Source: Leptolyngbya sp. FACHB-8 (GTDB lineage Bacteria; Cyanobacteriota; Cyanobacteriia; Elainellales; Elainellaceae). From it: DNA of 57,039 bases. A program made the position numbers and the translations under genes. The stretch is from NCBI RefSeq assembly GCF_014695575.1, contig NZ_JACJOO010000011.1:1-57039 (forward strand). The letters are read 5' to 3'. This document shows, piece after piece, positions 9,228 through 54,626 of the stretch. The notes beneath the pieces were generated by a model, which saw only the letters and a list, made by a program, of their open reading frames with translations, did no database searches and had not been told where the DNA came from. Positions within the stretch are counted from its first letter, which is position 1. The number at the start of each line of letters is the position of its first letter.

Positions 9228-9325
9228 CAGTGCTTTGCGCTTGAATCAGCCACGGTTGTTTTTGTAAGAACCGCGCTCCGTGTGGCTCTTACAAAAACAA
9301 CCAGATCTTAAGCGCTTTTAAGATG
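9228..9325 (+). repeat. Palindromic element, family C copy 1
   Basis: Left arm resembles AGCGCTTTGCGCTTGAATC; the central hairpin has a 19-bp stem beginning GGTTGTTTTTGTAAGA with one mismatch, and the right arm contains TTAAGCGCTT. Related copies lie at 49192-49292 and, inverted, 54032-54130. It is preceded by TTA. The right outer end is decayed. It fills most of the 428-base spacer between the two receiver genes; I see nothing else there. Confidence 0.75.
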
Positions 9326-10028: not shown

Positions 10029-10090
10029 CGCTTCTTCTATTTCTAAACCTGCACTAACAATTCATTTACCAATGTTAAAACAATACTCTA

Positions 10091-10163
10091 GACAGTTTTT
10101 CTGAAATCCTTGATTTTGCGTGCGCTTCGCGCACGCAAAATCAAGGATTTCAGAAAAACTGTC
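10091..10163 (+). repeat. Perfect 73-base palindrome (family E copy 1)
   Basis: A 35-bp perfect inverted repeat starting GACAGTTTTTCTGAAATC, with a three-base TTC loop at its centre. The flanks carry AATGTTAAAA at 10071-10080 and 10170-10179, so it may be inserted inside an older repeat. A second inverted pair, ACTAATGTTAAAAG with CTTTTAACATTAGT, spans about 10168-10221. Beyond this, I see nothing in the spacer 10222-10678. Confidence 0.85.
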
Positions 10164-10678
10164 CGAACTAATGTTAAAAGAATAGAAATGGATTTGCCTG
10201 TTCCATCCTTTTAACATTAGTGGGATTTATATCAGTTTTGCTTAGCGCCATACCAAGGCTTCTATAAGGACTAACAGGGTTTGTCATAAAACAGTCCCAT
10301 GAAAAATTTAGTTTTGCATATAGAGCACATACATAAAACTAAATCTTTTTTGGAATTTCTGATAAACCCCGAATTTCCGCAGCATTCACCCTGCTGAGTA
10401 AACTAAATTGAGTAAACTAAGAAGTAATAGCTTATGTCATTTGTTAGAGGAATGAGGGCGATCGCTTTCCTAACATGGAATGAACATGCTATCCACAACA
10501 TCCAGAATATTGTCAGTGAAAGACAATAGGCGATTGCCTAAACCGTGCCCATCTATATCACCGTTCCCATCCTTTAGAGAATGTTTGAAATCATCCAAGA
10601 GTTGATTTCGCACAGGTAAGATTCACGGCAAATTAGACTTGCAAGCATCCTTTTAGTCCCTCTCGTTTATCAAGAGCT

Positions 10679-11098: not shown

Positions 11099-11163
11099 CC
11101 GCCTTATGGCGTTTTTCTAAGACCCATTCGAAGAGGGTGATTTTTCGTGCTTAACAGATACTA

Positions 11164-11258
11164 GTAGGCTACGGCCTAAGTTCGTTGCCTATTTTTTGTG
11201 GTGAGGTGCTTCGCACCTCACCACAAAAAATAGGTTGTACACTTCTGCCCCAGCCTAC
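11164..11258 (+). repeat. Palindromic element, family A copy 1 (95 bp)
   Basis: Flanked by TA on both sides. The ends read GTAGGCTACGG and CCCAGCCTAC. The core is a long hairpin of about 23 bp with loop TTC (arm tip GAGGTGC/GCACCTC). Other copies are at 11436, 22914 and 35215. Confidence 0.8.
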
Positions 11259-11435
11259 TAAAGATCAACCTCTTCAATAATTTTGAAAACAGCCTCAGGG
11301 ATACTCAACATAGCGGATATTTTTCGCCCCAAAGACAAGTCGAGTAACAGCAAGAAATCAAGAGGAAGCCACTAAGTCGATCAGTTTGTTAAAAAGAAAA
11401 TGGCGCGATCGCTCAATGCCTTTTAACTATTACTA

Positions 11436-11530
11436 GTGGGCTGCGGCCTAAGTTCGCAACCTATGTTTTTGTGTAGGGTGCTTCGCACCCTACACAAAAA
11501 CATAGGTGATGGATTTCCGCCGCAGCGTAC
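11436..11530 (+). repeat. Palindromic element, family A copy 2 (95 bp)
   Basis: Same family as copy 1, only 177 bases away and in the same orientation. Hairpin arms CCTATGTTTTTGTGTAGGG / CCCTACACAAAAACATAGG, loop TTC. Ends GTGGGCTGCGG and GCAGCGTAC, flanked by TA. Confidence 0.85.
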
Positions 11531-11581
11531 TAGGCACGATTGAAGACAAGAAAATTTATCGAACCCGGACGTATAGTCGCA

Positions 11582-15220: not shown

Positions 15221-15377
15221 GCAAAGGACAGAACGAACCTTTCCTTAAAGTATCGGGCGTTTCTTGAATACAAGCCTGACGAAGAGCTTCAGCGAACTAG
15301 AAAGACCGGCAAATGATTCCTTTTTGGCCGAAGTATATCAGGTTTCATTGATCCTCGCTATTAACGACCTATCCGAA

Positions 15378-15505
15378 CAGCAATTCCCAGTATGAGAAGG
15401 CCGAGAGTGCGTGCCCGACGGGCACGCACTCTCGGCCTTGAAGCTCGAAAACCGCCCACTAAAGGTGGGCGGTTTTCGAGCTTGATTTCAAAATGAGAAT
15501 TGCTG
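15378..15505 (-). mobile_element. MITE, family D copy 1, with 9-bp target duplication
   Basis: Inverted ends CAGCAATTC / GAATTGCTG enclose two long hairpins (about 15398-15440 and 15442-15484). The 9-mer CTATCCGAA occurs immediately before (15369-15377) and after (15506-15514). The orientation is opposite to the copies at 49368 and 54195. It landed at the edge of another perfect palindrome (15512-15563). Confidence 0.9.
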
Positions 15506-15511
15506 CTATCC

Positions 15512-15563
15512 GAAACCCTAATTCAGGGAAGGTGCGGACGCACCTTCCCTGAATTAGGGTTTC
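15512..15563 (+). repeat. Perfect 25-bp-stem palindrome
   Basis: Stem GAAACCCTAATTCAGGGAAG... paired with its exact complement across a 2-base centre (GA). It lies 120 bases upstream of the first VOC gene and directly abuts MITE D1. No other copy is in the window. A role as an upstream terminator insulating the VOC operon from the divergent STAND gene is possible. Confidence 0.7.
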
Positions 15564-22893: not shown

Positions 22894-22913
22894 TAAAACG
22901 ACCTCCAGAACTA

Positions 22914-23008
22914 GTAGGCTGCGGCCTAAGTTCGCAACCTATGTTTTTGTGTAGGGTGCGAAGCACCCTACACAAAAACATAGGTGATGGATTTCCGCCT
23001 CAGCCTAC
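22914..23008 (+). repeat. Palindromic element, family A copy 3 (95 bp)
   Basis: Nearly identical to copy 2 (11436-11530) but with central loop GAA instead of TTC, i.e. the hairpin is inverted relative to the outer ends. Flanked by TA. Confidence 0.85.
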
Positions 23009-23052
23009 TAGATTCTTTTCCTATATTGAGGTCCTGTATGGAGGACCAAAGC

Positions 23053-33712: not shown

Positions 33713-33993
33713 TAGAGACTGATCAAGGATGTGATCCGGATTATGTTAACTTAGTGCTACGAAACCTAAATGTACCTGGCTCGATCTGAACTTTTAATTA
33801 GTTTTCATCTTGGGCAACCCATTCAAGAAGTTTTGCTGAGCAGCAGACTCAAGTATTGACGACAGTAGAATACATCGGTTCCCATTACATCCTCTCTCCA
33901 GGTACCCTAGCCGCTTTCTCCTGCAGCCATATAAGGTTTGGCCGCTGCAACGCTGATTGCAGGATTATTATCACGTCTTTGGCTGTTAGCTAA

Positions 33994-34094
33994 GGAGATT
34001 TCTGAGAAACAATATCCCCATTATTTGGAAAAAAGGCGCGGCGAAGCCGCGCCTTTTTTCCAAATAATGGGGAAGTTCTTATCTGGAAATCTCC
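33994..34094 (+). mobile_element. MITE, family B copy 1 (101 bp, TAA duplication)
   Basis: Ends GGAGATTTC / GGAAATCTCC flanked on both sides by TAA (33991-33993, 34095-34097). The core hairpin has arms of about 29 bp (CCCCATTATTTGGAAAAAAG... and its complement) with a central GCGAAGC. Its left half (GAGAAACAATATCCCC) is shared with the 43-bp element at 55084. Confidence 0.85.
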
Positions 34095-34181
34095 TAAGAC
34101 TAAGCTGATTTTAGAAAACAGGGATTTGCGCGTGGGGTGTAAATCTCCGTCTTAACTCTTTACTCTCTTCTTCAAAGAATC

Positions 34182-35096: not shown

Positions 35097-35214
35097 CTAT
35101 CTTTAGAGAGACCTTTCTAGCCAGGGACACTTTATAAATCTATACCTAAAGATAGAGGTAAGGCAATTAAAGGGTTTTTCGTAGGATAAAGCGAATGCAA
35201 TTTATGCATAACTA

Positions 35215-35307
35215 GTACGCTGAGGCGGAAATCCATCACCTATGTTTTGTGTGGGGTGCTTCGCACCCCACACAAAACATAGGTTGCGAACTTAGGCCGC
35301 AGCCTAC
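35215..35307 (-). repeat. Palindromic element, family A copy 4 (93 bp), inverted
   Basis: Reverse orientation relative to copies 1-3: starts GTACGCTGAGGCGG and ends GGCCGCAGCCTAC, flanked by TA. Hairpin arm GTGTGGGGTGC / GCACCCCACAC differs from copy 2 (GTGTAGGGTGC) by a paired change. Confidence 0.85.
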
Positions 35308-35446
35308 TAGCTAGATAGGACTGGCCTTTCCTGCACCACAATTGTGTGCTTCCTCCCACGACAATTCTGCAAAGGGCGATCGCCATGGCTACCAGAAACA
35401 AGGGTTTGGGGGCTACCTCAAGTTAAGAATAGGAAGAAACAGACAG

Positions 35447-45678: not shown

Positions 45679-45779
45679 GGAGATTTCCAGTAATGAAATT
45701 ACCCCCAGAATGTTGGTGCTTTGCCCGCGAAGCGGGCAAAGCACCAACATTCTGGGTAAATTCTTATGCAGAAACCTCC
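45679..45779 (+). mobile_element. MITE, family B copy 2 (101 bp, TTA duplication)
   Basis: Flanked by TTA at 45676-45678 and 45780-45782; ends GGAGATTTCC / GAAACCTCC. Core stem CCCAGAATGTTGGTGCTTTG... and complement, with CCCGCGAAGCGGG at the tip. Near-identical but inverted copy at 54374-54474. It lies 8 bases from the ABC-F stop codon. Confidence 0.9.
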
Positions 45780-49134: not shown

Positions 49135-49191
49135 GGCGGTTTAGCTACCTTCTTGAGCACCAACTTGACCCTATCATTACATATTTATTTA

Positions 49192-49292
49192 CAGCGCTTT
49201 GCGCTTGAATCAGCCACAGTTGTTTTTGTGAGAGCCGCGCGGAGCGCAGTTCTCACAAAAACAACCAGATTTTAAGCGCTGGAAAAGCACGA
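49192..49292 (+). repeat. Palindromic element, family C copy 2
   Basis: Starts CAGCGCTTTGCGCTTGAATC after TTA; hairpin GTTGTTTTTGTGAGAGC.. / ..GTTCTCACAAAAACAAC; ends near ...GGAAAAGCACGA followed by TA. 54032-54130 is its inverted counterpart. Confidence 0.8.
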
Positions 49293-49300
49293 TAAGACAA

Positions 49301-49365
49301 GTTTTTCTGATACTCTTGACTCCGTTTGCGCGTTGAACACGCAAAATCAAGGGTTTTGGAAAAAC
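49301..49365 (+). repeat. Decayed palindrome, family E copy 2
   Basis: GTTTTTCTGATACTCTTGA ... TCAAGGGTTTTGGAAAAAC: imperfect inverted repeat, similar to the perfect palindrome at 10091-10163. Its right end is the site where family D copy 2 was inserted. Confidence 0.6.
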
Positions 49366-49367
49366 CT

Positions 49368-49499
49368 CAGCAATTCCAATTTTGAAATCAGGCCCGAAAA
49401 CCGCGCGCCTTTGGCGCGCGGTTTTCGGGCATCAAAGCCAAGAGTTCATGCCCTACGGGTATGAACTCTTGGCTTTGATGCCCATACTGAGAATTGCTG
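49368..49499 (+). mobile_element. MITE, family D copy 2, with 9-bp target duplication
   Basis: Ends CAGCAATTC / GAATTGCTG; the 9-mer GAAAAACCT lies directly before (49359-49367) and after (49500-49508). Hairpin 1 at 49392-49430 (stem GCCCGAAAACCGCGCGCC, loop TTT); hairpin 2 at 49431-49479 (23-bp stem starting ATCAAAGCCAAGAGTTCAT, loop TAC). With the paired ends this folds as a three-way junction. Confidence 0.92.
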
Positions 49500-49521
49500 G
49501 AAAAACCTATCCTGAGTGCGG

Positions 49522-54031: not shown

Positions 54032-54130
54032 AGCGCTTTTCAAGCGCTTAAAATCTGGTTGTTTTTGTGAGAGTTGCGCTCAACGCAACTCTCACAAAAA
54101 CAACCGTAGCTGATTCAAGCGCAAAGCGCT
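54032..54130 (-). repeat. Palindromic element, family C copy 3, inverted
   Basis: CAGCGCTTTTCAAGCGC ... GCGCAAAGCGCT, central stem GGTTGTTTTTGTGAGAGTTGC / GCAACTCTCACAAAAACAACC (perfect 21 bp). TA precedes and follows. Confidence 0.85.
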
Positions 54131-54132
54131 AT

Positions 54133-54191
54133 AAAACCCAAAGCCTCATTTTGTGTGCGCTTCGGGCACACAAAATGAGGCTTTGGGTTTT
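54133..54191 (+). repeat. Palindrome, family E-like copy 3
   Basis: Perfect 26-bp stem starting AAAACCCAAAGCCTCATTTT with a 7-base GCTTCGG loop. Occupies the same place relative to C and D elements as copy 2 does at 49301. Its right end holds the target of D3. Confidence 0.75.
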
Positions 54192-54194
54192 GGT

Positions 54195-54323
54195 CAGCAA
54201 TTCTCATTTTGAAATCAGGCCCGAAAACCGCGCGAAGGCGCGCGGTTTTCGGGCATCAAAGCCAAGAGTTCACACCCGTAGGGCGTGAACTCTTGGCTTT
54301 GATGCCCATACTGAGAATTGATG
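54195..54323 (+). mobile_element. MITE, family D copy 3, with 9-bp target duplication
   Basis: Ends CAGCAATTCTCA and TGAGAATTGATG (one substitution); GGTTTTGGT precedes (54186-54194) and follows (54324-54332). Same orientation as copy 2. Confidence 0.92.
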
Positions 54324-54363
54324 GGTTTTGGTACGGTAGAGGTGCAAGAGGAAAGAAACAAGT

Positions 54364-54626
54364 GTGTTTCTTAGGAGGTTTCTGCATAAGAATTTACCCA
54401 GAATGTTAGTGCTTTGCCCGCTTCGCGGGCAAAGCACTAACATTCTGGGGGTAATTTCATTACTGGAAATCTCCTTAAAGTATTGCTAGACGAAAGGGAA
54501 TTGTCGAGCTTGGTGGAATGGAGAGCGATCGCCAACCTCAGCAGCACCATCGTTGAAACCACTATAAAAATGTCCCAGCGGGAGCCCAAATATTTGCCTA
54601 AGAAACAAAAGGCCCACACCCTGTAA
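54364..54626 (+). pseudogene. Possible small ORF interrupted by MITE B3
   Basis: If the family B element and one TTA are removed, a GTG at 54364 (with GAGGAAAG upstream) opens a frame through 'VLLDERELSSLVEWRAIANL' and 'SSTIVETTIKMSQREPKYLP' to a TAA at 54624-54626, about 53 codons with a GCGATCGC in it. Not recognised. The reading is tentative. Confidence 0.25.
54374..54474 (-). mobile_element. MITE, family B copy 3 (101 bp, TTA duplication), inverted
   Basis: Flanked by TTA at 54371-54373 and 54475-54477. The reverse complement matches copy 2 over the whole length except for few sites, including a paired change in the stem (GTTGGTGC there, GTTAGTGC here). Confidence 0.92.

Follow-up and report, generated by a model that had tools for sequence, protein, structure and literature searches.

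Covarying stems and inverted loops in a double-hairpin MITE family of Leptolyngbya sp. FACHB-8

The 132-bp element at 49368–49499 of the window (the whole stretch of DNA analysed, 57,039 nucleotides of the Leptolyngbya sp. FACHB-8 genome) belongs to a MITE family whose hairpin stems change in sequence from copy to copy and stay paired, and whose loops occur in both directions. There is good support for a real and new MITE family whose parent is of a known kind; as an example of mobile DNA in which hairpin arms are repaired and loops inverted, it is unusually clear. In the reading that we consider likely, the MITE was mobilised in trans by a transposase encoded on an ISNCY-type insertion sequence (IS) of 1.42 kb, probably lost here, and its hairpins were recopied at the DNA level; at the level of sequence comparison, the shared ends, the 9-bp duplications and the presence of a full-length IS in relatives are shown. 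Neither stem covariation nor loop inversion figured in the preliminary description of this DNA, and no earlier report of the element, or of loop flipping in a MITE, was recognised among the open-access matches listed. Covarying stems are usually read as strong evidence for selected RNA structure. Here, covariation and loop inversion are found in mobile DNA, in many copies and in several genomes, with little sign of RNA selection, a caution for the inference of RNA structure from repeats. The MITE also offers a natural, replicated data set for bacterial template-switch rates and a good natural assay of hairpin repair, and it ties a high-copy family to a defined parent IS.

Copies, target duplications and insertion sites

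Three copies lie in the window, with the coordinates, the inverted CAGCAATTC ends and the two hairpins that the preliminary description had given them; as it had also claimed, each is flanked by a different, exact 9-bp repeat. The first copy (128 bp, 15378–15505, minus strand, in the opposite orientation to the other two) lies between duplications of CTATCCGAA at 15369–15377 and 15506–15514, the second (49368–49499, plus strand, with ends CAGCAATTCCAA.../CAGCAATTCTCA...) between GAAAAACCT at 49359–49367 on its left and 49500–49508 on its right, and the third (129 bp, 54195–54323, plus strand) between GGTTTTGGT at 54186–54194 and 54324–54332. Three of their six ends match CAGCAATTCTCA exactly, two have one mismatch, and the sixth, on the left of the 49368 copy, has two.

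Folded as single-stranded DNA, each window copy forms a closing stem and two hairpins, with fold z-scores for the three of −14.6, −17.1 and −12.8 (200 shuffles each). Hairpin 1 of the 49368 copy (49392–49430, plus strand) has an 18-bp stem and the loop TTT, and hairpin 2 (49427–49483, plus strand) has 27-nt arms, 96% complementary, around the loop TAC; the two overlap by 4 nt, and hairpin 2 comprises 23 pairs in the DNA fold. Both hairpins of the 54195 copy are on the plus strand, hairpin 1 (54219–54254 in the DNA fold) with a tip 3 nt shorter and hairpin 2 (54251–54307) with the loop GTA, the reverse complement of the TAC of the 49368 copy. In the 15378 copy, hairpin 2 (15397–15439, minus strand) and hairpin 1 (15441–15483 in the DNA fold, minus strand) have stem sequences unlike those of the other two window copies, yet still paired. 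The window also contains 67 GCGATCGC sites against 0.7 expected, an excess which we take to be the HIP1 signature of cyanobacteria.

Genome-wide, in a draft assembly of 6.93 Mb and 95 contigs, CAGCAATTCTCA was found at up to one mismatch 193 + 202 times, against 9 + 10 for the reversed control; subtracting control matches from end matches and halving, (395 − 19)/2, gives about 188 MITE copies. The 117 copies collected first were picked blind to target duplication; among them the 9-bp duplication was exact in 74, within one mismatch in 95 and within two mismatches in 102. An exact flank match of 7, 8 or 11 bp was seen in none of these copies and one of 10 bp in a single copy, and re-pairing of their flanks gave an exact 9-bp match in 0.6% of cases, self-pairings included. 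A larger set of 140 distinct copies, in which the target duplication helped decide between alternative end pairs, had an exact duplication in 88, one within one mismatch in 111 and one within two in 121.

Several MITE copies are inserted into other repeats of the genome, and uninterrupted paralogues of these served as empty sites in place of orthologous ones. Uninterrupted paralogues of the L161 and L194 sites cross the junction without a gap after removal of the element together with one 9-mer; among the matches listed for five such targets, four (L008, L161, L194 and L236) were gap-free, with some junction mismatches, and that of L142 aligned with gaps. Empty-site paralogues of the 49368 copy (L213 and L031) show one small gap. 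At the one orthologous site tried in the congener G001, the downstream part alone aligned, at 75% identity. The earlier claim of real transposition is thus borne out by the 9-bp duplications and the paralogous empty sites, and that of MITE status by elements that are short (128–132 bp) and without coding capacity, with 12-bp terminal inverted repeats and a target duplication of constant length.

MITE insertions avoid genes: 6/58 testable insertion sites fell inside an open frame of at least 150 codons, compared with 67% of 290 random window positions. Five contigs of the assembly (C14, C32, C48, C51 and C73) have a MITE end some 100 bp from their start, so that MITE copies seem to break the assembly. 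Pairs of MITEs only a few bases apart were seen at L146 (1359–1632), where the adjacent elements have one 9-bp spacer in common, and at L019 and L152. In the second copy at L146 the hairpin-2 arms are unmatched, and its right half resembles the neighbouring copy.

A parent insertion sequence in related genomes

The preliminary description had proposed a search for a full-length IS sharing these ends, and one was found in relatives but not in this genome. In one relative (G023) a 1420-bp IS has two ends that match the two differing ends of the MITE; in IS and MITE alike, one end is CATTTTG-type and the other CAGTATGG-type, the IS ends reading CAGCAATTCTCATTTTGG and CAGCAATTCTCAGTATGG. Of five G023 loci with the 1420-bp end pair, four (L090, L106, L241 and L242) have an exact 9-bp duplication and one (L239) has none, and the MITE has its ends in common with an autonomous element. 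A wider search for end pairs at 1.2–1.7 kb, over 29 loci, gave 14 with an exact 9-bp duplication, one (L117) with a single mismatch, two (L240 and L243) without a pair and 12 without a matching duplication, some of these 12 being truncated or chance pairs. The 1.42-kb IS resembles the MITE in its ends and its 9-bp duplication, and differs from it in coding for a 435-aa DDE transposase and in having no double hairpin visible by eye in the sequence read.

This transposase scored 21.6 bits against DDE_Tnp_1 (cut-off 23) and 20.5 bits against NCBIfam IS4_2 (cut-off 152), matched IS701_3 marginally and below cut-off, and had no match up to E 1 among the sequences of solved structures. A Gloeothece homologue (48% identity over 96% of the query) is annotated as an ISNCY family transposase, and the parent IS can be classed as ISNCY-type as annotated through this homology. 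The preliminary description had instead linked the element to IS4 by way of C-terminal transposase remnants in the window. There, no such remnants were found: the seven genome matches to DDE_Tnp_1 (PF01609) all lie on other contigs, with none on the contig of the window (C3), and 19 of 60 window ORFs of at least 100 aa, when scanned, included no transposase among the families listed (for one of them, a WD40 protein, the best 25 of 63 families). As candidate parents the seven DDE_Tnp_1 loci were rejected, none having the MITE ends paired and none, within the stretch examined, having inverted ends with an 8–12-bp duplication. It is thus improbable that the element is an IS4-family MITE, a reading to which the 9-bp duplication and the marginal DDE_Tnp_1 and IS4_2 matches lend something, but against which stand the position of both scores under their curated cut-offs, the ISNCY annotation of the homologue and the lack of inverted ends with duplications at the seven loci. 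An IS4 remnant does not seem to be the parent.

Matches to the transposase were present in 91/291 genomes of the class, and the same search gave none in the FACHB-8 genome itself or in its congener G001. Low-threshold tblastn against the window and loci of its own genome returned nothing below E 1.9, the positives scoring fully. The MITE family appears to be orphaned of its transposase, unless the latter sits in an assembly gap; an autonomous partner in the same genome is not obligatory for MITEs. The ISNCY-type transposase would have acted on the MITE ends, recognising them and placing new copies for the most part in intergenic DNA.

Paired stems and inverted loops

Stem pairing was close to complete in spite of considerable divergence. 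Among copies exactly 132 bp long (95, aligned on fixed centres), 3522/3610 stem cells were Watson–Crick (97.6%); the figure was 95.5% for all 114 copies with best-fitting centres (those of 126–137 bp among the 140 extracted), and 97.3% for 105 of the 114 that were picked for having both stems, a filter which favours pairing. Pairwise, copies differed in 17–18% of cells per arm. When arms were re-dealt among the same 105 copies pairing fell from 97.3% to 82.6%, or to 90.7% within subfamilies. The matched double changes expected of template switching were evident at 24/38 pair positions, with at least two Watson–Crick types each present in at least two copies, and 12 of these involved transversions; one position, for example, was A–T in 45 copies, T–A in 40 and C–G in 15. 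One subfamily with a seemingly swapped hairpin order was merely mis-oriented.

By cell count, G–T mismatches did not exceed A–C (37 versus 50 in 105 copies, p 0.20; 35 versus 43 in 95 copies), whereas counting each kind once gave a slight G–T surplus (22 versus 16); the copies are paralogues with a common history, and cells are not independent events. The lack of a G–T excess by cell count favours pairing at the DNA level rather than in RNA. In four further genomes with the same layout, detailed below, the numbers were small: 12 G–T to 4 A–C in G058, 10 to 19 in G013, 4 to 4 in G025 and 1 to 3 in G012.

Loops, counted with their commonest flanking bases in the 114 copies, were AAA in 20 and TTT in 19, and TTC in 19 and GAA in 12, for hairpin 1; for hairpin 2 they were GTA in 34 and TAC in 24, GTC in 11 and GAC in 6, and TTC and GAA in 10 each. 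These pairs cover 70/114 copies for hairpin 1 and 95/114 for hairpin 2; the other loops were rarer variants, and several of those lacked a reverse-complement partner. Among the 105 filtered copies, a loop whose reverse complement was also present was carried by 97 in hairpin 1 and 99 in hairpin 2. In the 88 copies that could be scored, the directions of the two loops were unassociated (28/25/19/16; Fisher p 1.0). Between copies with an identical 126-nt backbone, hairpin 1 was flipped in 11 pairs, the same in 10 and otherwise in 2, and hairpin 2 flipped in 7, the same in 12 and otherwise in 4; these 23 pairs come from 19 copies in 6 groups, and hence are not independent. Near-loop mismatches would be expected to go with loop direction if both flip together, and the counts (9, 1, 3 and 3; p 0.12) are suggestive at most.

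Stems kept paired by selection on an RNA, be it a terminator or a structured transcript, with loop directions incidental, would account for the stable folds and for the bias of insertion sites outside long open frames. UUCG and UACG are stable RNA tetraloops, and some of the loops would read so in RNA; the 12 to 4 ratio in G058 and the once-per-kind surplus of G–T point the same way, neither strongly. Against this, there is no G–T excess by cell count here, nor any in G013, G025 or G012, the two loop directions are about equally common, and within the window every Rfam family stayed below its gathering score. We regard RNA selection as very improbable.

A further question is whether the flips were made by the assembler, at palindromes or among near-identical copies, from short reads. 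The assembly is a draft of 95 contigs, and flips approach 50:50 at zero divergence. However, hairpin-1 loops beside a perfect run of no more than 19 bp were TTT in 28 copies, AAA in 18, TTC in 21 and GAA in 11, and such runs should be too short to mislead an assembler whose k is at least 21, so that flips are unlikely to have been invented by assembly; flips also occur in two families and four assemblies, and matched stem changes cannot arise in this way. An artefact of this kind is therefore highly improbable, although loop variants of near-identical copies could have been exchanged during draft assembly, exaggerating the randomisation.

The stem and loop patterns fit DNA-level template switching between strands. 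On stalling at a hairpin, a polymerase would move over to the opposite strand, use the complementary arm there as template, copy that arm and the loop, and then return to its original template. A single such event would make the arms match and reverse-complement the loop, and repeated events would let stems drift while staying paired and leave loop direction random. We infer the switching step at the hairpins from its footprint in these alignments, and likewise the event, its rate and its timing, whether in replication or in transposition. In rRNA genes, according to PMC8794818, a template switch yields compensatory changes and inverted loops in one event, both of which the MITE shares; loop inversions are few there (69 ‘loop inversion only’ patterns in its table), whereas loop direction in the MITE is near random. 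Spacer inversion with arm homogenisation, termed reversible in PMC8604942, is described there for yeast genes; in these as in the MITE, short spacers (ttc/gaa included) are inverted between perfect arms, but the yeast cases are ten events in single genes, and the MITE is a multi-copy transposon.

A second high-copy element, with TTAGGAGGTTTC ends unrelated to those of the MITE, occurs in the window at 45693–45765 and at about 54370–54480. It has one 25-bp perfect hairpin with the 3-nt loop TTC or GAA, and 125 candidates were found in the genome. Its loops flip as well, less evenly: the best 40 of the 125 had 24 TTC, 10 GAA and 6 other, in a ranking against a TTC-loop query that is biased to TTC, and with seven of the GAA calls and three of the others deduced from identity columns. 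This family, too, looks like a transposon.

Alternatively, stem matching and loop inversion might belong to transposition, through an intermediate that is folded or undergoes gap repair, and not to ordinary replication. In its favour, loop direction differs even between copies with identical backbones, and mobile copies in five genomes keep the same layout; yet yeast spacers invert between arms of >9 bp without transposition (PMC8604942), and loops also flip in the second family with its unrelated ends, transposon-like though that family is. We hold this version of events to be unlikely, but to deserve some weight.

Relatives, derivatives and neighbouring repeats

A covariance model of the element had matches in 17/60 genomes, its own included, with up to 56 candidates scored per genome. 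Copies were examined from four of them: G012 (29 model rows), G013 (26) and G025 (33), of the same family as the host, and G058 (39), of another family, the rows covering both strands and not being copies. Of 46 loci taken in, four had no end pair and 34 of the remaining 42 passed the length and stem filters, two having been skipped for weak stems; several of the 42 had poor ends, and the target duplication helped choose the end pair. One locus (L348), with 8 end mismatches, is probably no element.

The elements of the four genomes were mostly 126–133 bp (131–133 bp in G013 and G058), with the same ends and two hairpins with 3-nt loops; the fold described at the outset as unusual for a MITE thus recurs in four further genomes. 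The loops lay about 41–44 bp from the ends, save for three G025 copies with right-side distances of 37, 54 and 55. Exact 9-bp duplications flanked 9/18 copies in G058, 5/10 in G025, 3/6 in G012 and 2/8 in G013, and the stems of G058 were quite unlike those of FACHB-8. Reverse-complemented loops, as template switching would leave, were found in three of these genomes as in FACHB-8: AAA 6 and TTT 4, with GTA 6 and TAC 2, in 18 copies from G058; GCA 2 and TGC 2, with TGC 6 and GCA 1, in 7 copies from G025; and CGT 2 and ACG 2 in 7 copies from G013.

There is a slim chance that the two-hairpin layout itself (about 132 bp, with 3-nt loops about 43 bp from the ends) is under selection as a substrate for transposition, perhaps because folding brings its ends together, with recopying coupled to transposition and stem sequence free. 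Were this so, stems could be replaced while the element retained its form from one cyanobacterial family to another. Same-ended MITEs without the double hairpin exist (for example L238, L254, L086 and L094), indicating that mobility itself does not depend on the hairpins.

Further afield, a 22-mer of the left MITE end was found in eight stretches of named genomes. Elements with the same ends are present in Candidatus Competibacter (L068, 143 bp), with two ends and flanks agreeing at 7/9 bases, and in Nostoc, where two stretches (one of them L073, 165 bp) hold elements with two ends and flanks without duplication. Matches in Poseidoniales, Thalassarchaeaceae and Euryarchaeota were set aside, having similar surroundings that look like one shared gene, as were those in Anaerolineae and Methanosarcinales, which had no second end nearby. 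IMG/VR yielded no exact match, and plasmids and phages none at the DNA level.

Double-hairpin elements of fungal mitochondria are mobile and have two hairpins, as does the MITE; we know of no DDE ends or target duplications among them. REPINs, which are paired with RAYT, offer another comparison. They too are short mobile bacterial elements built around palindromes (PMC3116915), from which the MITE differs in its ends of at least 12 bp, its 9-bp duplications and its DDE parent. Nezha, cited in PMC10969869, is likewise an active MITE of cyanobacteria.

Derivatives include a single-hairpin class of 82–84 bp, of which 11 were extracted, 6 with exact duplications and at least one a miscall (L197, inside a longer copy); another (L177) has no clear hairpin. 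L188 is an 89-bp perfect inverted repeat around a 3-nt loop; both its ends are right-type and its duplication is exact, the outcome expected of a fold-back copy. In a 224-bp element (L226), hairpin 1 is split by another hairpin-bearing insert.

A third repeat of the window, with GTTGTTTTTGTGAGAG hairpins (9236–9316, 49188–49283 and 54040–54123), lies near two of the three MITE copies and may be a favoured neighbourhood for the MITE. Six long quasi-palindromes (10058–10196, 11162–11260, 11433–11533, 22911–23011, 33990–34098 and 35209–35313) are 79–84% complementary, all with 3-nt centres and some with sequence in common.
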